A stretch of 64,000 bases of DNA from Lachnospiraceae bacterium (GCA_017461725.1 JAFTXG010000004.1:62001-126000); one strand, 5' to 3'. Positions 39,089 through 49,333 are shown, counted from the stretch's first letter. Program-made: numbers and translations. The notes: generated by a model not told the origin, from the sequence alone.

Positions 39089-39781
39089 ATGAGAGATATC
39101 TGGGATTCTATCGTTAATTTTTTCCAAACTGAGTGGGCAAAGCTCAAGCCCATGAGCTTCAATGATAAACTGGTATACATCTGGGAATATTACAAGCTTC
39201 ATATTATTATTTTCCTTACGGTACTGATCTCGACGATCTCCATCATCAACACGGTCAGAGAAAACCGTGCCGGAGGCGAGGTCGTCTTCGGTGTGGCTAT
39301 CGTCAATGACATGAACGGAAATGACGCAGCTGAGCAGCTGGCGACAGAGTTCGGCGACTATCTGGGACTGGTCTACGGAGAACAGTGCGTTCAGGCCAAC
39401 GGCGGCTATTCTGTGGGAAATACCGGTATGGACTACTACGAGGTGTCTTCCATTCTGATGATGGTGGATGCAGGTGCAGGCAATGTGGATGTGGCCATCT
39501 GTCAGGAGAATGCCCTGCAGTACTTTGAGAATGTGGACGATGTGATCTGGATGGATCTGAACGATATCATCGGCGCAGACCGGGTGGCCGAGCTGGGTGA
39601 CCGGATCTTCTACTATACAAATGCAGACGGAGAGAGCTTCCCCTGCGGCATCTACATCAAGGATCATCCCGTGCTGGCAGCTCACAGCTCTACCCTAAAG
39701 GAGCCCATGGTCGTTTTCCCGGCTGCGGCTCGGCATGTGGAGTATATGGATGATTTTGTGGATTATATTTTAGGTGAGTGA
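39089..39781 (+). CDS. Hypothetical membrane-anchored protein
   Basis: 230 residues. A cytoplasmic amphipathic N-terminus (about 1-35) leads to one hydrophobic segment (IIIFLTVLISTISIINTV, about 38-55), then an outward domain of about 170 residues rich in acidic residues with a DVAICQENALQYF...VDDVIWMDLNDII core. No family is recognised. It has its own promoter, stands divergent from the exporter operon and convergent to the 39912 operon, and ends at a strong terminator. Its outer domain faintly resembles a solute-binding lobe, not enough for a call. Confidence 0.75.
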   Translation: MRDIWDSIVNFFQTEWAKLKPMSFNDKLVYIWEYYKLHIIIFLTVLISTISIINTVRENRAGGEVVFGVAIVNDMNGNDAAEQLATEFGDYLGLVYGEQCVQANGGYSVGNTGMDYYEVSSILMMVDAGAGNVDVAICQENALQYFENVDDVIWMDLNDIIGADRVAELGDRIFYYTNADGESFPCGIYIKDHPVLAAHSSTLKEPMVVFPAAARHVEYMDDFVDYILGE

Positions 39782-39911: not shown

Positions 39912-42278
39912 TCACCGATTCTCCGCCAAATACAAACTTGCCCTTCTCTGGATCACCTCTGCCGTCTCTGCAGCCGTTTTCGACCCGGCAAAAAAGCCTT
40001 CTGCCTCCTCCAGAATCAGGCTGATCAATTCTTCATTGTAAAAAGCTGTCTTATCCACTGAGCGAATAAATTCCAGATAGGCTTTCGCCTCCTTCCTGGT
40101 CAGTGGCTGGATCGTCACCTCATTGCCGTTGATGCCCATCGTCGGTTCGTACTCCACCCTATTTCCGTTTTCATCCAGATAATAGTACGGCTCGGTGGCC
40201 TTTTCTGCCAGAGCCTCCAGCACATCGTTTCGCACCGACAGCCGGAAGTGATCAGGGTCAGACTGGTACTCCTCCGACAAAAAGCAGCTCAGCAGCTCCC
40301 AGGCGCCCTCCTTACAACTGCTCTTTGCGGAGATGGCAAAGCTGCCCTCCTCCATCAGTACCGAGCCGATTCCCTCCGCAGTCGGGAATCCGATCCAGGT
40401 GATGGGCTCACCGAAATAATAGTCCTTCGTCTGCTTCATGTCATCGAAGCTATAAATGGAGGCTACATACAAAAGCACCCGATTCTCCCGGTACAGGCTT
40501 CTCTCATTCATCCAGTAATCATCCCCCAGCGAGGAATAGTCGATCTCCTCCGGGAACCTGGCCGTCCACTCCAGCAACTCGATAAACTCCTCTGACTCAA
40601 AATCGCAGGTCCCATTTCTCACATCCAGATAAGTGTCCCCAAAATACATCACACAGACGGTCAAAAGTTCACTTCGGGTGACCAGATCAAAGGCCTCACT
40701 GTCCGGATAGTTCTTCATGACCTCCAAAATCTCACTGACAGTCCATTGCTCCCGGTTTCCCACCACAGAGGTCTTTGCCGCCGCGGTTCCGATGGAAAAG
40801 CCGATGGGCATCTGATAAAGCTTTCCGTCCACGGTGAAAGCCTCCATCACGTTGGCCAGCAGATCCTTTCTGTTCAGTTCCTTGTCTTTGTCGATCCATT
40901 CGTACAGATCCTCAAACATCCCCTGCTCAATGTAGCTGTCCACCGGCATATTGTAATTATCCAGGATCATCACATCGGGAGTCCGCCCCGCCACAATATC
41001 GTTATTTAATATGGTCAGACCTCCCTCCGGCTCCGCAGCTGTATTAAAGTCTGCATAGTCGGTCACGGTCACCAGATATTTATCGCTCGTCTGGTTAAAG
41101 GCGATAATATCGCTGAGCATATCTGAGCCCAGATAAAAGCCGCCCAGCGTGACAGTCTGCTTATCCTGAACCAACTCCGGATCAACCTTTTTCAGCAGAC
41201 AGAGCTCCTGTTTCCATGTCTGCTGATCGAACATGACCGCCAGGATCGTTTCCTCCCCCACCGCCAAAAACTGATGGATCTGACCGGAATCAATGCCCGA
41301 ATTGACGAAATTCAATACCTCTGTATATTGACTCTCCCCCATATTGTAACCAATGATTTTCTCACCGTTCTGGAACAGCAGGTCATACCCGCAGCCGGCC
41401 AGCAGATTGCCGCCGGAGGAGAAGCCTTCCCAGGGCACCTCCAATGCCTGACCCGCAGTCCCCTTTTCCCCGTCGATCTCCACGATCTGATAACCGGTAC
41501 TGTTCATGTAGCCGTTGGCGAAAATCTGTCCCTCTACAGTGACAGCAATGTGGTAGATTATATTCATACCGGGGATAGTGACCTCCCCAATCATTTCCCC
41601 GTCCGCATCATAGATCAATACAGTCTCCGAAGTGTTGATCAGCACCCGGTCGTCTGTGCAGGCGATCTGCGCCGTGTACATGGCAAGCGGAATATCCGCC
41701 TTCCACAGCTCATTCCCGTCCCGGTCCAGCTTGACCAGCTGCCATGTACTGTCACTGCCGGGCATCTCCACCACGCCGCCGGAACCGCCCATATCTGTGG
41801 GTGTGCCGTAAGTCTCCATCACGCAGTATATGTTTTCCTCGCCGTCCATGGCGATTCCTGCCACCCCTGTGGCGACATCATCCTCCGCCTCCGGCGGCGC
41901 AAACCGGCACATTTCCGTGAACACCAGCTCCGAAACATCAGCGCGGAGGATCACCTGTGACCGCCGATTGCCGTTCTCCTGATCGTAAACATCCCCGAAC
42001 AAATAGACCTGGTTATTCTTGCATATCATATCGGAAACATATTCCATCGAAATTTCCCCGTCCAGCTTTTCCAGACGGTAAAGACTGTCCTTGTTGACGC
42101 TGACCTTGCCCGGGTCTGCCTGTGTGCTGTCAGAGTTCTGGCCCTGTTTTCCGTCCGCAGCCTTCCCGCAGCCGGAAAACAGACACATAAAAATCCCGAT
42201 GCAGATCAGCAGCGCCACAGCATTTCCAAACAGCCAGCAGACACCTCCCCCGGTCAGTCGAATGCGCTTTTCTCTCAT
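39912..42278 (-). CDS. Large lipoprotein: propeller-like domain plus solute-binding domain
   Basis: 788 residues. A basic start and hydrophobic stretch end in a FSGCGK lipobox (Cys37). Residues about 60-390 are short repeated beta strands of the form NGNELW...AYVFDADG, like a propeller. From about 395 (VTLGGFYLGSDMLSDIIAFNQTSD) a type-1 extracellular solute-binding domain follows, ending FFAGSKTAAETAEVIQRRASLYLAE. Such length is about twice that of an ordinary binding protein. It is a paralogue of the next gene upstream and last in the operon, with a promoter of its own at 42319. Confidence 0.82.
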   Translation of the reverse strand: MREKRIRLTGGGVCWLFGNAVALLICIGIFMCLFSGCGKAADGKQGQNSDSTQADPGKVSVNKDSLYRLEKLDGEISMEYVSDMICKNNQVYLFGDVYDQENGNRRSQVILRADVSELVFTEMCRFAPPEAEDDVATGVAGIAMDGEENIYCVMETYGTPTDMGGSGGVVEMPGSDSTWQLVKLDRDGNELWKADIPLAMYTAQIACTDDRVLINTSETVLIYDADGEMIGEVTIPGMNIIYHIAVTVEGQIFANGYMNSTGYQIVEIDGEKGTAGQALEVPWEGFSSGGNLLAGCGYDLLFQNGEKIIGYNMGESQYTEVLNFVNSGIDSGQIHQFLAVGEETILAVMFDQQTWKQELCLLKKVDPELVQDKQTVTLGGFYLGSDMLSDIIAFNQTSDKYLVTVTDYADFNTAAEPEGGLTILNNDIVAGRTPDVMILDNYNMPVDSYIEQGMFEDLYEWIDKDKELNRKDLLANVMEAFTVDGKLYQMPIGFSIGTAAAKTSVVGNREQWTVSEILEVMKNYPDSEAFDLVTRSELLTVCVMYFGDTYLDVRNGTCDFESEEFIELLEWTARFPEEIDYSSLGDDYWMNERSLYRENRVLLYVASIYSFDDMKQTKDYYFGEPITWIGFPTAEGIGSVLMEEGSFAISAKSSCKEGAWELLSCFLSEEYQSDPDHFRLSVRNDVLEALAEKATEPYYYLDENGNRVEYEPTMGINGNEVTIQPLTRKEAKAYLEFIRSVDKTAFYNEELISLILEEAEGFFAGSKTAAETAEVIQRRASLYLAENR

Positions 42279-42318
42279 AAAATAAACCCTCCCGCTATTT
42301 AATGATCGTTATGTCACC

Positions 42319-42347
42319 ATCATAGCGAAAGGGTCATTAAGAACCAA
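42319..42347 (-). promoter_or_regulatory. Internal promoter before the second large lipoprotein
   Basis: Reverse strand TTGGTT (42342-42347), 17-base spacer, TATGAT (42319-42324), in the 120-base gap between the two lipoprotein genes. Confidence 0.55.
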
Positions 42348-42398
42348 GTGGTTAACTCCTTAAAAATTGATTAAGGGAGAGGTCTTCCCCTCATATCA

Positions 42399-44924
42399 TC
42401 AGCTGTTCTCCGCCAGAAAAATACTTGCCCGGCTCTGGATGATCTTTGCCACCTCTTCCGCGCTCTTCTGTCCGGCGAAGAAGTGCTCCGCGTCCTCCAT
42501 GATGATATTCAGCACCTCCGTATTCAGGGTGGAAACCCGGTCTACGGTCTTCATGAATTCAATATATTTATCGATCTCCTCCTGCGTCAGAGGCTCGATC
42601 ACGATCTCTTTGTCCCCCACCCAGTAGGTGTCCTCCACCACGACCTCATTTCCATTTTCGTCAATGTAGGTGTAGGGCTTCATCGCCTGCTCGCCCTTCT
42701 CCTCCAGCGCACTGAGCTTCACCGGGAAGCACCATATCTTATCGGACATTTGATACTCGTCGGTGAGGAAACGGCGGATAAACTGCCATGCGCCATCCTT
42801 ATTCTCACTCTGGGAGGAGATGGCGAAGGTGGTCTCCGGCTGCAGGACAGAACCGCTGCCCTCTGAGGTAGGGTAGCCGATACAGGTGATGGCCTCACCA
42901 AATGCCGCGCCTCTGAGATATTTTAATTCCTCGAAGGCAGAGATGGTGGTACTCTGAAGCAAAGTCTTGTTTTCCCTGTACATGGTATCGTAGTGCAGGT
43001 AATAATCATCATCAACCTTATTGTAATCAATCTCCGCCGGGAAGGTATTGGCCCACTCCAGCAGTTTGATGAACTCCTCCGAATCAAAGCTGCAGGTGCC
43101 CTCCAGCTCGTTCATAAACTGATGACCCACCACGTTCATACAGCTGTTCATCAGATCCTGTCTCGTCCACATTTCAAACATCTGGCTGTCCGGGTACGCG
43201 GCCTGCAGTGCCAGCACATCGTCGATGGTCCATCCGGGTCCCTCGCCCACCAGCGCGGTCTTTCCCACCACGGTGGAAACGGCGAAGGAGGGAGTAATCT
43301 GATACAGCTTGCCGTCCACAGAGAAGGCGTCCAGCACATTGGGCATGAAATCCTCCGCCTTCAGCTCCGGGTCCGCGGCGAGCAGCTCGTTCAAGTCCGC
43401 AAACGCCCCTTTGGAAATATAGCTGTCCAGCGGCATATAATAGCTGTTGGTAATCAGAATGTCCGGTGCCTTCCCGCTGTTGATATCATTGTTCAGCTGC
43501 TGGGTGCCTGCCTCAGGATTGGCGCTGGTATTATAGTCACTGTAAACGACCACCTTAATCCGGTAATCCTCATTGGTCTTGTTGAATTTGATAATCTCGC
43601 TGGTCATCTGATAGTCGTTCCACATCATACCCAACGTCAGAATAACCTTTTCCTTCACATCCTCCGGGGCCACCTTGGTCAGAGAAAACATCTCCAACTT
43701 CCCGTTGTCCGGATTATACGCACCCATGTAGAAGCTGTTCTCACCGCTGGGACTGATAAAACTCATATTCCCCACATCGATGTCCGAATCCACATAATTC
43801 AGGATCTCGGTATAATTCGCATCCCCGATATTGTAACCGGCAATGAAGGAGCTGCCCTGCAGGAAAATATCGTAGCCGATCCCGGGAATCATTGTCAGTC
43901 CCTGACTGCTCCATGGAGCCTCAATCTCCGCCTCCAGCGCACCGGTCTGCAGATTCAGGGGCTTCAGTACATACTTACCGTCACCGTTGGTATAGTCATA
44001 GTAAGTCACATAGGTACGTCCGTCCGCCAGCATGACCATACTGTTGATCCACATATCTCCGACCAGCTCGATTTTATTCAGCGGCGAGCCCTGATCGTCA
44101 AACACGTAAACCACACTCTCCGCATTGACCAAAATCTTCCCGCCGCCGCAGACCATATGACTTGCGTAGGTAACCTCCGGTATCGTCAGATTCCACAGCT
44201 CATCGCCGTTCCGATCCATCTTCACCAAAATCATCTCCGACAGATATTCCTCGGGTGTCTGGGTCCAACGGTTAAACAGCAGGATCAGATTGCCCTGGCC
44301 GTCGCCCACAATATTCTGAACATACTCTCCTGTATATATCTCCCGGCCCGGCTCCGGCTCCTGTATCGACTCCGTTTCCTGCTCTGGGTCAACTTCCTGC
44401 CCCGTATCGCTTTCCTGATTCGGCTCATTTTCCTGTTCTGGTCCGCTTTCCTGATCCGACTCGCTTTCTTGCTCCGACTCGCTTTCCTGATCCGGCTCAG
44501 CCCCCTGCACCGGCTCACTCTCCATAATCGCCGGTCCGTCCGGGTATTTTTCCGCCCCCTCACTGTACTCATAGATGGAGCTCAGCTGTGTCCCATCCGC
44601 ATTTCCGGCAAATATATAGTAGGTCGAGGCCCAGGTCTCCTCATCATACTCATAGCCAGAAATATACATCGTGTCTCCGCTGAGGATCAACCGACTGATC
44701 TCGCTGATGGGGAGATCAAATCCCGCCGGAGTGCTCCTGTAGATCACGTCCTTGTTCAGCAGCTCGCTGTTATTGTTCTTTTCACCGTCTTTACCGTCGC
44801 TTTTTCCCGGAGAGTTCCCTCCGGTCTCGCCGTTGCCGGAAACCGTCCCGCAGCCTGCCAACAGCAACATGCACATACTAAACGCCAGCAAAATACTAAT
44901 CCATCGTCTCAGCTGTCTCTTCAT
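42399..44924 (-). CDS. Large lipoprotein: propeller-like domain with acidic hexapeptide insert plus solute-binding domain
   Basis: 841 residues. Lipobox LLAGCG with Cys25. A propeller-like region runs from about 55 to 425 and is interrupted at 145-192 by eight acidic hexapeptides. A solute-binding domain starts near VILTLGMMWNDYQMTSEIIKF and ends FFAGQKSAEEVAKIIQSRAS, closely matching the paralogue downstream. The start overlaps the end of the MacB-like gene by 29 bases. It should be tethered outside the membrane and may sense or bind a polymer with one domain and deliver a ligand with the other. Confidence 0.83.
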   Translation of the reverse strand: MKRQLRRWISILLAFSMCMLLLAGCGTVSGNGETGGNSPGKSDGKDGEKNNNSELLNKDVIYRSTPAGFDLPISEISRLILSGDTMYISGYEYDEETWASTYYIFAGNADGTQLSSIYEYSEGAEKYPDGPAIMESEPVQGAEPDQESESEQESESDQESGPEQENEPNQESDTGQEVDPEQETESIQEPEPGREIYTGEYVQNIVGDGQGNLILLFNRWTQTPEEYLSEMILVKMDRNGDELWNLTIPEVTYASHMVCGGGKILVNAESVVYVFDDQGSPLNKIELVGDMWINSMVMLADGRTYVTYYDYTNGDGKYVLKPLNLQTGALEAEIEAPWSSQGLTMIPGIGYDIFLQGSSFIAGYNIGDANYTEILNYVDSDIDVGNMSFISPSGENSFYMGAYNPDNGKLEMFSLTKVAPEDVKEKVILTLGMMWNDYQMTSEIIKFNKTNEDYRIKVVVYSDYNTSANPEAGTQQLNNDINSGKAPDILITNSYYMPLDSYISKGAFADLNELLAADPELKAEDFMPNVLDAFSVDGKLYQITPSFAVSTVVGKTALVGEGPGWTIDDVLALQAAYPDSQMFEMWTRQDLMNSCMNVVGHQFMNELEGTCSFDSEEFIKLLEWANTFPAEIDYNKVDDDYYLHYDTMYRENKTLLQSTTISAFEELKYLRGAAFGEAITCIGYPTSEGSGSVLQPETTFAISSQSENKDGAWQFIRRFLTDEYQMSDKIWCFPVKLSALEEKGEQAMKPYTYIDENGNEVVVEDTYWVGDKEIVIEPLTQEEIDKYIEFMKTVDRVSTLNTEVLNIIMEDAEHFFAGQKSAEEVAKIIQSRASIFLAENS
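44349..44492 (-). repeat. Eight 18-bp repeats encoding acidic hexapeptides
   Basis: Within the 841-residue lipoprotein, 144 bases encode eight six-residue units beginning DQESES, EQESES, DQESGP and EQENEP and ending EQETES, IQEPEP. Later units are diverged. Such tandem repeats change length by slippage in whole codons. Confidence 0.85.
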
Positions 44925-45945
44925 ATCCCCACCTGTTTTTTGCCTTTCTGAGTTCCCACTGAACTCCGATCGCTTTTCGCGCCGCCCAGAAGGCGATCAC
45001 TGCGATCACTGCCAAAATCAACACACAAATACTCTGAAATACCAAAATTAATGCCAGCACATCCTCCCAGCCCCTGGCCGCATTCTCCCAACTGGGCCAG
45101 ATGATGCGCACGGTCTGCATGGAGCGGACTCCGAAATCAGCGAGCACCTTGAACAGCGCTTCCGCCGAATAGCGCTCCGAATTCTCCACCAGCACCGCGG
45201 TCTCCTCGCTTATCCCCAGTCTTTCGGTCACGACCTGTTTGCCGTAGCCGGACACCGGGTTCGGGAGAAGCAGCTCATAGCAGGATATCCCGTCGGTACT
45301 GCCGTAGCGGCTCAGGGAATCATAGGACAGATACACAGTCATCTTATCCGCACCGGCCTTTTTGTCCATCCGGTCAGCCTCCCGTCGAATCACCCCCGCA
45401 ATATAATGAGGCGCTCCACCGATGGTCACCGTCATCCCGGCCACATCGGAGGACCCGAATAACTGCCAGGCCGCATCCTCGTCGATGATGATCCCGTCCT
45501 GCATCAGGTCACTGCCGGAGAAATAGGAACCGTAGAGCAGCTTAAATGGATGGAACAGGAAAAAATCTCCTCCCACTCCGACTGCCGCCGCGCTGACGGT
45601 CGCCCTGTCACTGGTGACCTGTACCTCGCCGAAGCTGCTGTAGGCAGTCACCCACAGTCTGGCACTCTCCGTCGGTGGCGTGATCCCGTCCGTACTGAAT
45701 TTTTCCTCCAGCGAATACTCGAAATTTTTCAGCAGCATCGGATCGGGCTGACCTTCCCGCGTATAGAAAACACTCAGCTGTGTATATCCGCCCTCCGACG
45801 ACCACCGCTCTGCCAGGTGCTGGCTGTCCGGTATCCCTTTTATGTAAGCAGACACTCCGGACAGCACCGCCAGAATAACCGCTGACACCACGGCGACCAC
45901 GGCAGTTCTCTTTTCCTTTCTGCTGAATAGATTGAACCATTTCAT
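44896..45945 (-). CDS. MacB-like periplasmic-core protein with only two membrane helices
   Basis: 349 residues. Helix 1 is at about 15-34, then an outer domain of about 260 residues with MacB_PCD-like sequence (VGGDFFLFHPFKLLYGSYFSGSDLMQDGIIIDEDAAWQLFG), then one helix near 305-330 and a charged tail. Normal MacB or FtsX-type permeases have four helices and an attached or adjacent ATPase; both are missing here. It follows the HlyD-like adaptor by 12 bases, as MacB follows MacA, so the two may form an envelope assembly. Function not known. Confidence 0.75.
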   Translation of the reverse strand: MKWFNLFSRKEKRTAVVAVVSAVILAVLSGVSAYIKGIPDSQHLAERWSSEGGYTQLSVFYTREGQPDPMLLKNFEYSLEEKFSTDGITPPTESARLWVTAYSSFGEVQVTSDRATVSAAAVGVGGDFFLFHPFKLLYGSYFSGSDLMQDGIIIDEDAAWQLFGSSDVAGMTVTIGGAPHYIAGVIRREADRMDKKAGADKMTVYLSYDSLSRYGSTDGISCYELLLPNPVSGYGKQVVTERLGISEETAVLVENSERYSAEALFKVLADFGVRSMQTVRIIWPSWENAARGWEDVLALILVFQSICVLILAVIAVIAFWAARKAIGVQWELRKAKNRWGYEETAETMD

Positions 45946-45957
45946 GGCAGGCCTCCT

Positions 45958-47526
45958 TTATTCCGTCAGGCGGATCAGCTGGCCGGGTGCCACCGGCTTA
46001 CTTGCGGTGGTGATCACATATTCATATCCGTTCAGCAGACCGGAGATAGCGCTGCTGGTCTCATCGGAAGCGAGCACCTCCACGTCCACTCTGGTGGCCA
46101 CATAGCGGGTACCCAGAGGGCTCTGCTTATATTCCACGATCAGGATGAATTTGCCGTTATTGTCCTCGCGGATTGCGCTGTTGGGAACCGTCAGACTGTA
46201 CTCCGCACTCTTTTGACCCACAGAAATGCTTAAGGACTGACCGTCCATCACCTCGCCCTCAACGGTAAATACCAGAAGCTTATTGGTCTGAGGGTTGCTC
46301 GGGTCAACCCGGATCGCCGTCAGCACCGCGGTGACACCGCTGTAATACCAGGCGTTCTGGATATCCGCCACATCGCCCACGCGCAGAGAGGCTGCCTGCT
46401 CAGCTGTCACGGACATAGTCATGGTACACTCCTTGCCGGAAATCTGGATCGCCGCAACGGTGGCGCCGGCCTCAATGGTCTCTCCGGCGCGGTAGCTGAT
46501 CGAGGTAACGGTTCCGCTGACGGGAGACTTCACCTCCGCCGCTGTCTCCTTGGCCTTCAGTTCCTCCACCAGCGCCCGCTGTTCCTCGATCGCCTGAAGC
46601 TGTGCCGTCAGGCTCTGAATATTGCCGCTGGAAGCACGAAGGTCTGTGCTCTCCTCCGTGAGCTTCAACAATCGCTCCTGTGCGGCGTCTTTCCCCGCCC
46701 CGACTGTCTTCAACTGGCTGCTTAATTGTATGTACTGAAGCTGGGCCTGCCACATCGCTTTCAGCCCTTCTTTTCGTGCCTTCTCGCCCTCCGCATAGCG
46801 TTTTGCTTCCTCTGCCGCGGCCTTCTCTTCCTCTGTCTGTGCCTCGTTCATTGCCTTTTCAGCGGCCGCAAACAGTTCCTTGATATCCGTATCCAAAACT
46901 GCCTGTGTCTCGTTCAGTTTTCCCTGAAGATAAGATTCCGACTCTGAAACTCCACTGACTCCCGTCGCCGCCAGCTGGTCCTCCAGCGATATAATCTGCT
47001 TATCATACTCCTGCAGTTGCTTCTCCGTGGTCTCGATGGCTGCCTCCAGCTCCGCCAGTCTGGCCAGATTTTCCGCAAAGCTTCCTCCGGTTCCGTTCTG
47101 GGCCGCGTAGACATCCTCCGCCGGAATGCCGCTGGCAATGATACCACTCTCATAGCTGCTGATCATCTGCTCCAGCTGTTTCTGGGCATTTTTCAATTCC
47201 TCGCTCTCGGTCTCCTCCAGCATCAGGATCACCTGATCCTTCTCCACGGTATCCCCGCTGCGCACCAGAACACTGGCAACCACGCGGGTCTCATTCAGCA
47301 CCACCGAATAGGGATCGGCGGCACTGATGGTACCGGTTCCCCGCACCTTTGAAGTAATCGTCCCCGGTGCCACATACTGGGTGGACACCTCCGGCAGCGA
47401 ATAATTCATAAACGTGTTGGAGAACAGGGTCAGCACCAGCATGACCGATAAAAAGATAATCGCTGCATTTTTGACCCAGTCCTTTCTGTTTTTCGCACCT
47501 CTCGTTGCTCTCGTTTCTTCACTCAT
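45958..47526 (-). CDS. HlyD/RND-type periplasmic adaptor (membrane fusion) protein
   Basis: 522 residues. Short cytoplasmic tail, one helix (about 20-40), a barrel-sandwich half (VAPGTITSKVRGTGTISA), a long coiled coil (about 100-310, rich in Glu/Ala/Lys), then the second sandwich half (VKSPVSGTVTSISYRAGETIEAG) and a beta-barrel domain. This is the layout of MacA/YknX-like adaptors that connect a MacB-type permease to its cargo. It overlaps the sugar permease upstream by four bases, which is unusual, since adaptors normally travel with exporters. Confidence 0.87.
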   Translation of the reverse strand: MSEETRATRGAKNRKDWVKNAAIIFLSVMLVLTLFSNTFMNYSLPEVSTQYVAPGTITSKVRGTGTISAADPYSVVLNETRVVASVLVRSGDTVEKDQVILMLEETESEELKNAQKQLEQMISSYESGIIASGIPAEDVYAAQNGTGGSFAENLARLAELEAAIETTEKQLQEYDKQIISLEDQLAATGVSGVSESESYLQGKLNETQAVLDTDIKELFAAAEKAMNEAQTEEEKAAAEEAKRYAEGEKARKEGLKAMWQAQLQYIQLSSQLKTVGAGKDAAQERLLKLTEESTDLRASSGNIQSLTAQLQAIEEQRALVEELKAKETAAEVKSPVSGTVTSISYRAGETIEAGATVAAIQISGKECTMTMSVTAEQAASLRVGDVADIQNAWYYSGVTAVLTAIRVDPSNPQTNKLLVFTVEGEVMDGQSLSISVGQKSAEYSLTVPNSAIREDNNGKFILIVEYKQSPLGTRYVATRVDVEVLASDETSSAISGLLNGYEYVITTASKPVAPGQLIRLTE

Positions 47527-48407
47527 CCTTTTATACCCCCTTGATAGGTAATTCCTTCCACCAGATACTCCTCACCGTACAGAAAAATTAACAGTGAAGG
47601 TACCATATATATCGTAGCAACCGCGAACGCCAGCCCGACCTCCCCCTCATTGATCTTCGAGAGGAACACTGACAGCGGGTGAAGGCTGTCATCCCGCAGC
47701 AGGATCAGCGGCTGTTCAACCATATTCCAGTAGTCCATAAATACCAGAATCCCCACCGCGAATATCATGCCTTTGCAGAGCGGTGCACACACTCTGGTGA
47801 ATATCTGCCACTCCCTGGCCCCGTCGATCTTCGCCGCGTCGATCATCGCCGCCGGGATGCGCCGCATATACTTGGTCAGCAGATACACGGAGAACGGCGA
47901 GAATACACCGGGCAGCCAGATCGCCCACCGGGTATCCAAAATTCCCAGCCACTCCGACACAATGTAATTCGGCACCAGCGTGACCTGATAGGGCATCAGC
48001 ATGATAATAATGTAAGAAAAAAATACAATTCCCTTCAGCTTTCCCGGAAACCGGGCAAACCCATAGGACGCCAGCAGCGCGACCAGCAGCTGGAATGCCA
48101 CAATAGGAACCACCAGGATAACCGAGTTCCAGAACTTCATCAGATAATCCGGACTCTTTAACAGTACAGTAAAGTACTGACTGAAGGACACCATGTCCGG
48201 AATCAGTTTTAAGTTCACCCTGTCGGCGATAAACACTTTTCCGCCGGTGTCGGTGGTCTGAAAGATCACACCGTAATTGGACGATATCTCCGATGCGGAC
48301 ATCAGGGAATTGGTAATGGTCAGCACGATGGGAATCAAAAACAAAACCGCCAGCGCTGCCACAAGCACCGTCAGGATCGCGTTTACTACTACAGACTGCT
48401 TTCTCAT
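47523..48407 (-). CDS. Carbohydrate ABC transporter permease (MalG-like)
   Basis: 294 residues, six helices, EAA loop MIDAAKIDGAREWQIFTRVCAP and a C-terminus YLVEGITYQGGIKG. The second importer permease of the locus, overlapping the first by an ATGA of four bases. Residues after the second helix form an extra outer loop. It needs an ATPase supplied from elsewhere. Confidence 0.92.
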   Translation of the reverse strand: MRKQSVVVNAILTVLVAALAVLFLIPIVLTITNSLMSASEISSNYGVIFQTTDTGGKVFIADRVNLKLIPDMVSFSQYFTVLLKSPDYLMKFWNSVILVVPIVAFQLLVALLASYGFARFPGKLKGIVFFSYIIIMLMPYQVTLVPNYIVSEWLGILDTRWAIWLPGVFSPFSVYLLTKYMRRIPAAMIDAAKIDGAREWQIFTRVCAPLCKGMIFAVGILVFMDYWNMVEQPLILLRDDSLHPLSVFLSKINEGEVGLAFAVATIYMVPSLLIFLYGEEYLVEGITYQGGIKG

Positions 48408-49255
48408 CCCTCCACATCCTTTCCATAGTAGTTTTCAATCAGGAACAGCGCTCCGATGATCACGATCATCACCGCGCTCATGATGATAGCCGCCGCCGAC
48501 AACCGCTGATAGTTAAGCTTCTCAAACATATTGTTCATAAAATGCTGCAGCGTGTACAGGGTATCAAACGGATAATTACCAGTCAGCAGGTGCACCTCGC
48601 GGAATATCTTAAAAGAATTGATCAGGGAATAAATCGTCACGAACAGAATCGTCGGAGAAAGATAGCGAAGTTTTATGTAACGGAAGGTCTGGAACGAAGA
48701 CGCGCCCTCCAGCCAGGCCACCTCCAGCATTTCCTTCGGCATGCTCCCCAATGCAGCCATAAACAGAATCATATTATAACCCAGGTTTTTCCACAGGTAC
48801 ATCAGCACCACGACCAGCATGGCATACTCTGACTTCAGCCAGTCGATCTTGTCCACCCCGAACACGGCAAGCCCTTCATTGACCGCACCATTGTGGTGGA
48901 ACAACACCTGAAAGATCAGAATGACCGATGCCACCGGAACCATCATGGGGCTTAAAAACGCGGTCCTGAACTGGCTGCGAAGCGGAATACTTCTCTCCAG
49001 AATCAATGCCAGCAAAAGCGACAGTACTACCGCAAGCGGAACCGCCGTCACCGAAAAGGTGAAGGTATTTTTCGCCGCCATCTGAAATGCCGCATTATTC
49101 AGAACCTTAATGATATTGTCCAGGAAAACAAACTCTTTCCGGACAGGACTGTCAATCAGTGCGTAGTAAATCACCACCCCGAAGGGAATGATGAAAAACA
49201 TACTGACACCGAACAGGCTGGGCATCAGATACCTGACCCCTCTGTCTTTTCTCAT
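48404..49255 (-). CDS. Sugar ABC transporter permease (MalF-like)
   Basis: About 283 residues, six helices, EAA loop MPKEMLEVAWLEGASSFQTFRYIKL. It is the first gene of the mixed importer/adaptor operon. A GTG one codon before the ATG is an equally close alternative start; AGGAGG lies eight bases before the ATG. With the next gene it forms the channel for a ligand delivered by the large lipoproteins. Confidence 0.92.
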   Translation of the reverse strand: MRKDRGVRYLMPSLFGVSMFFIIPFGVVIYYALIDSPVRKEFVFLDNIIKVLNNAAFQMAAKNTFTFSVTAVPLAVVLSLLLALILERSIPLRSQFRTAFLSPMMVPVASVILIFQVLFHHNGAVNEGLAVFGVDKIDWLKSEYAMLVVVLMYLWKNLGYNMILFMAALGSMPKEMLEVAWLEGASSFQTFRYIKLRYLSPTILFVTIYSLINSFKIFREVHLLTGNYPFDTLYTLQHFMNNMFEKLNYQRLSAAAIIMSAVMIVIIGALFLIENYYGKDVEG

Positions 49256-49333
49256 CACACTCTCCTCCTTTTTATTTTATACGCAGATACCACCCCAACA
49301 TCCTTATATACGGGAGACAAAAATTATGATTTC

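Follow-up and report, generated by a model that had tools for sequence, protein, structure and literature searches.

A conserved operon joining CUT1-type importer genes to efflux-type adaptor and MacB core genes in Lachnospiraceae and seven further bacterial families

Can genes for sugar-importer permeases and genes for efflux-type envelope proteins, lying end to end on one strand, encode a single membrane machine? The question is raised by six genes in a 64,000-nucleotide stretch of a Lachnospiraceae bacterium genome (GCA_017461725.1, JAFTXG010000004.1:62001-126000; hereafter the window), which belongs to contig 12 of this 3.2 Mb genome. The genes encode, in order, two MalF/MalG-type permeases, an HlyD-type adaptor, a protein with a MacB periplasmic core domain (MacB-like) and two large lipoproteins containing a substrate-binding protein (SBP) domain. 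A reading of the window's sequence (the original prediction) had taken them for one undescribed machine. We find that the system is real, ancient and widespread, and that the genetic association of its importer and efflux-type parts is well supported. On balance we lean towards the view that the operon specifies one membrane machine, an ATP-binding cassette (ABC) importer of the CUT1 type with efflux-type extracytoplasmic parts forming a tube or stalk.

A gene block kept across eight families

Conservation was followed in two surveys, one of 299 genomes of the source bacterial family (Lachnospiraceae) and one in which a genome collection was scanned with a MalG profile (peptides WNMVEQP and MPYQVTLV) and 80 named loci were retrieved, including those of Kineothrix alysoides, Parablautia muri and Butyrivibrio. 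Strong MacB-like orthologues were present in 28 of the 299 genomes, as were strong MalG orthologues, and the two sets of genomes are identical except for two mismatches, both at contig ends; contig ends aside, the order MalF-MalG-HlyD-MacB-like was kept at 27/27 loci. Among the 80 loci, the informative adjacent pairs along this order were kept in 70/70, 74/74 and 71/71 cases, with median gaps of -4, 28.5 and 12 bases, followed by -4 bases from the MacB-like gene to the downstream SBP gene (SBP-D). An SBP gene lies downstream of the MacB-like gene at 68/73 of these loci and upstream of MalF at 52/71. The core block is also found in seven more families of the phylum (f34, where 8/20 genomes have it, f177, f179, f200, f161, f14 and f82), and many Firmicutes of gut and soil carry it. 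The source family itself includes a second, diverged subfamily, which has the order SBP-MalF-MalG-HlyD-MacB_PCD too. In a MalG tree the sequences of the system form one clade, set against three canonical MalG proteins, and at two loci (L083 and L099) the MacB-like and SBP-D genes are fused as a single open frame in which the SBP lipobox is retained.

Gene order in related genomes was the check put forward with the original prediction: the order proved universal, its loss was not encountered, and relatives in eight families keep the block, which supports the idea of one undescribed machine. Relatives of the system-specific MalG occur in at least 587 stretches of the genome collection, many of them from gut or rumen bacteria, and a common gut-bacterial transporter therefore sits undescribed; no description of the architecture was found in the literature searched, subscription journals being mostly outside its coverage.

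Within the window, all six genes lie on the minus strand and span 39912-49258 (Table 1), with intergenic gaps, from the first gene to the last, of -4, -4, +12, -29 and +120 bases, so that the gene count, strand and spacing originally given were exact. The domain calls agree with Pfam (two BPD_transp_1, HlyD/Biotin_lipoyl, MacB_PCD without FtsX and two SBP_bac_8), the two helices ascribed to the MacB-like protein are found both by hydropathy and in an AlphaFold2 model, and both large proteins have the signal helix and lipobox of a lipoprotein; these last had been called propeller-binding, for which the correct term is propeller-containing. The small gene convergent with the operon gave no family match, and no match in the related loci examined.

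Table 1. Features of the operon and its immediate surroundings, in window coordinates
Feature	Position	Strand	Remarks
MalF/UgpA-type permease, operon gene 1	48404..49258	-	ATG at 49255; BPD_transp_1 5e-15; UgpA-like 81.7 bits
MalG-type permease	47523..48407	-	DYWNMVEQP motif and EAA loop; BPD_transp_1; GlcU-like 85 bits
HlyD/MFP-type adaptor	45958..47526	-	N-terminal transmembrane segment with LTLFSNTFMNYSLPEV motif, split lipoyl domain, long alpha-hairpin, beta-barrel
MacB periplasmic-core protein	44896..45945	-	two-transmembrane anchor, without FtsX domain or nucleotide-binding domain; MacB_PCD 1e-10
SBP-D copy 1, 841-residue lipoprotein	42399..44924	-	beta-propeller and type I SBP; SBP_bac_8 2.6e-16; D-clade
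SBP-D copy 2, 788-residue lipoprotein	39912..42278	-	SBP_bac_8 3.6e-13; AlphaFold2 pLDDT 86
Weak terminator-like hairpin	42372..42393	-	inside the 120-base gap separating the SBP genes; 10 such sites in the region against 7.5 by chance (not above)
230-residue transmembrane protein	39089..39781	+	convergent with operon

Permeases and ATPase of an importer

The two permeases are of the MalF/MalG type found in CUT1/type I importers and have EAA docking loops, which MalG retains and which deviates in the MalF of the main clade. The system-specific motif DYWNMVEQP is carried by 117/119 MalG proteins of the system, and conservation reaches 77% for MalG and 73% for MalF (mean column identity of MalF in 25 relatives, 62%).

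The operon of the window encodes no ATPase. The original statement that none is present for either half holds within the window but can mislead, as in relatives the gene for an importer ATPase lies inside the operon or next to it: a MalK/UgpC/MsmX-type ATPase is operonic in f34 and f14/f82 and available in trans in Lachnospiraceae. In f34, the gene for this UgpC/MsmX-type ATPase directly follows the MacB-like gene at 7/8 loci and at the eighth is divergent and adjoins the operon, and both copies tested have OB_MalK and TOBE_2 domains. At 4/4 loci of f14/f82 it again directly follows the MacB-like gene and is itself followed by an SBP gene; the single copy tested scores 466 bits against a cut-off of 432. 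No such gene was present in any Lachnospiraceae locus examined, while all 23 genomes tested contain a match, 20 of which exceed the curated cut-off. The best match in the source genome is an orphan, whose neighbours are Hsp33, asparaginase and PucR-type genes and which may pair with the operon; there is precedent for orphan MsmX powering sugar importers that have no ATPase of their own (PMC7658222). None of the system's loci has a MacB/LolD-type ATPase within the core block, and the ATPases found in its operons are UgpC-type. Because relatives carry a UgpC/MsmX-type ATPase and never a MacB-type one, the simplest reading is that the engine is that of a CUT1/type I importer rather than of an exporter. 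The importer and signalling roles had originally been left as alternatives, and the importer ATPase of the relatives, together with the in-trans copy in Lachnospiraceae, favours the first; a signalling-only complex is not favoured, given that this ATPase is encoded alongside the operon in relatives.

Adaptor, MacB-like core and binding lipoproteins

The nearest solved relatives of the window adaptor are MFP/MacA/HlyD proteins, and it matches RND_mfp at 62.9 bits, under the curated cut-off of 94.9. Its conservation is uneven: the transmembrane/juxtamembrane segment is 85% conserved, at least as much as either permease, against 49% for the whole adaptor, 62% for the barrel/lipoyl region and 31% for the hairpin. 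The segment contains the motif LTFFSNTIMN..LPEV, present in 113/123 full-length adaptors (with the variant LTLFSNT in the window) and absent from two MacAB adaptors of the same bacterial family, a pattern suggesting that it packs specifically against the permeases. Between the lipoyl halves, the hairpin comprises 170-421 residues, with a median of 295, as estimated by a motif rule.

A model of the MacB-like protein (mean predicted local distance difference test score, pLDDT, 92.3) matches MacB (3ftj) with Z 14.9 and a root-mean-square deviation (rmsd) of 3.5 over 198 aligned residues, and the YknZ domain with Z 13.5 and an rmsd of 3.4 over 168. The system thus has two features of MacAB/YknXYZ, the HlyD/MFP adaptor (with its RND_mfp score beneath the cut-off) and the MacB periplasmic core domain. 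It does not have the third, a four-transmembrane FtsX permease, the window protein containing two transmembrane segments and giving no FtsX match. The system is not a MacAB member, since neither this permease nor a MacB-type ATPase was found when looked for. By hydropathy, two transmembrane segments are present in 111/132 MacB-like homologues scored, and deep-branching forms (f14/f82, f200 and L261) have about 4-5, like MacB, suggesting that the two-segment anchor derives by reduction from a full MacB-like permease.

The upstream (SBP-U) and downstream (SBP-D) binding proteins separate without exception in phylogeny (66 and 65 sequences, respectively). Both window lipoproteins are sister copies of the SBP-D type, and the usual SBP-U is missing here. 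The 788-residue protein is modelled (pLDDT 86) with an N-terminal propeller of ~23 strands and a C-terminal SBP, of which residues 373-786 have CbpC as their best match in a comparison of the SBP half (Z 28.9, rmsd 3.8, 379 aligned). The SBP domain matches CUT1 oligosaccharide-binding proteins, and the system therefore includes the extracellular binding protein of sugar-SBP fold that belongs to a CUT1 importer. The fold is of the oligosaccharide-binding type, and the capture of a large ligand, as originally envisaged, is a conjecture. Conservation averages 0.38 over the propeller and rises to 0.57 over the SBP half; nor is the propeller universal, the f14/f82 SBPs being only about 460-500 residues long.

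Three further observations concern these lipoproteins. An acidic E/Q/S-rich repeat (residues ~105-195) is inserted in the propeller region of the 841-residue copy and is absent from the 788-residue copy. Elsewhere in the source genome, contig C27 (L225:6079-9537) has a 1152-residue frame in which a BlaR1-type M56 peptidase is fused with a propeller-SBP module, a homologue of SBP-D; the product is possibly a sensor employing the same ligand module. Finally, contig C16 (L224:5151-14164) encodes two further propeller-SBP lipoproteins, each of 817 residues and without permeases, with genes for an extracytoplasmic function (ECF)-type sigma factor, a serpin and a DUF1848 protein nearby; the two lipoproteins might feed the same importer.

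Proposed assembly, rival explanations and known systems

How might such parts work together? In the machine towards which we lean, the translocation path would consist of MalF and MalG, on which a MalK/UgpC/MsmX-type ATPase would dock; in Lachnospiraceae this ATPase would be a shared orphan acting in trans, and in other families it would come from the operon itself. The propeller-SBP lipoproteins would bind the ligand, which would resemble an oligosaccharide or be glycosylated. Fastened to the permeases through its conserved transmembrane motif, the HlyD-type adaptor would assemble on the MacB-type core domains, as a hexamer by analogy with MacA and Spr0693, and the core could serve as docking base because its ATPase-coupling part has been lost. 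The resulting tube or stalk would cross the sub-wall space and bring either the ligand or the loaded SBP to MalFG. A tube of this kind is known from Streptococcus pneumoniae, where six copies of the adaptor Spr0693 build it on top of a MacB-like permease; its reach of ~154 Å is similar to that of the inner wall space (PMC5768738). We would go further only tentatively, in suggesting that the operon may represent an ABC importer class of its own in monoderms, with a CUT1 permease that is fed across the sub-wall zone by an efflux-type adaptor tube resting on degenerate MacB domains. If true, a tripartite-type adaptor would be known from an importer for the first time. If an importer has indeed adopted the adaptor and MacB domains, which are known from efflux, then tripartite-type assemblies serve uptake too, and the transfer of large or captured ligands across the Gram-positive sub-wall zone would become testable.

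Several points weigh against such an importer. The oligomer and tube proposed for the adaptor rest on analogy, and the EAA loop of the main-clade MalF is off consensus (EVA.LESA...IKLRY). MsmX-type ATPases are widespread in genomes, so their presence alone is no proof of pairing. A role in nutrient import is not established, because no glycosidase or sugar-catabolic gene accompanies the operon in Lachnospiraceae and some relatives adjoin vanRS instead of sugar genes. The top same-strand neighbour families of the Lachnospiraceae loci include no glycosidases and are mixed housekeeping genes (PHP, TPK, ThiF, iPGM), for which reason a carbohydrate utilisation locus was rejected in this family.

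The main rival is a role in cell-envelope sensing or defence, which we consider rather unlikely. The ligand of the SBP-propellers would then be a piece of cell wall or a glycosylated antibiotic; the ABC engine would either remove it from its target or signal occupancy to a two-component system, in the manner of BceAB with its MacB-like permease. In keeping with this, OmpR-type two-component genes adjoin the deeper-branching loci L259, L261, L263 and L289-L292 (f14/f82 and the second subfamily). The pair at L291 score as VanR (426.7 bits, cut-off 350) and VanS (409.5 bits, cut-off 400), those of L290 and L292 are near-identical to them, judged by sequence start, and genes for a VanI ligase, VanW and FemAB are further present at L290:11499-18632. 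Clusters containing vanI are harboured by Desulfitobacterium and Desulfosporosinus (PMC4229326), and on the evidence of vanI the vanRS-linked f14/f82 bacteria are probably relatives of these genera. The M56 peptidase fusion in the source genome also speaks for a sensing role. However, no recurrent regulator family lies beside the Lachnospiraceae type I loci, the vanRS linkage amounts to three loci in two genera, and the neighbouring genes may function independently.

Less probable still is an ordinary oligosaccharide importer in which the adaptor and core domain are only structural tethers that keep the SBPs close to the permease and form no conduit. The CUT1 permeases, SBP and ATPase are all canonical, and in f179 a GH9 cellulase gene adjoins two loci, a GH5 cellulase gene one and GH94 genes one; f179 bacteria, however, appear rich in cellulase-type enzymes, so this neighbourhood is weak evidence, and the long estimated hairpins and conserved barrel/lipoyl region exceed what a tether needs. 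Both the cellulase-type and the van-type neighbourhoods would be compatible with a ligand that is glycosylated or comes from the cell wall. Chance proximity of a CUT1 importer and a MacAB-type exporter remnant is highly improbable, for although each half resembles a known family, the order is unbroken across eight families with an importer ATPase after the MacB-like gene, a MacB-type ATPase is absent and the adaptor motif is system-specific; separate importer and exporter operons were rejected on the universal gene order.

Among known systems, to our knowledge, the ATPase-less importers energised by MsmX/MsmK (AraNPQ, GanSPQ, YesOPQ and YtcPQ-YteP) have no HlyD adaptor, MacB core domain or beta-propeller SBP. 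They likewise consist of two MalF/MalG-type permeases and a lipoprotein SBP, and share a UgpC/MsmX-type ATPase in trans (PMC7658222). In MacAB-TolC, YknWXYZ and Spr0693-0694-0695, as here, an HlyD/MFP adaptor adjoins a MacB periplasmic core domain, whereas the main clade of the present system lacks the FtsX coupling region (two transmembrane segments, not four) and the MacB/LolD-type ATPase of these pumps and has importer permeases and SBPs instead. The Clostridium thermocellum sugar-binding protein CbpC (7x0o) has its SBP fold in common with the 788-residue lipoprotein, at ~20% identity, but does not have the N-terminal propeller. Finally, BceAB, LolCDE and YtrEF differ in having full FtsX-type permeases, their own ATPase and no CUT1 permeases, and are linked to the MacB-like protein by a related extracytoplasmic core fold (Z about 8-11.5 for LolE/LolC).

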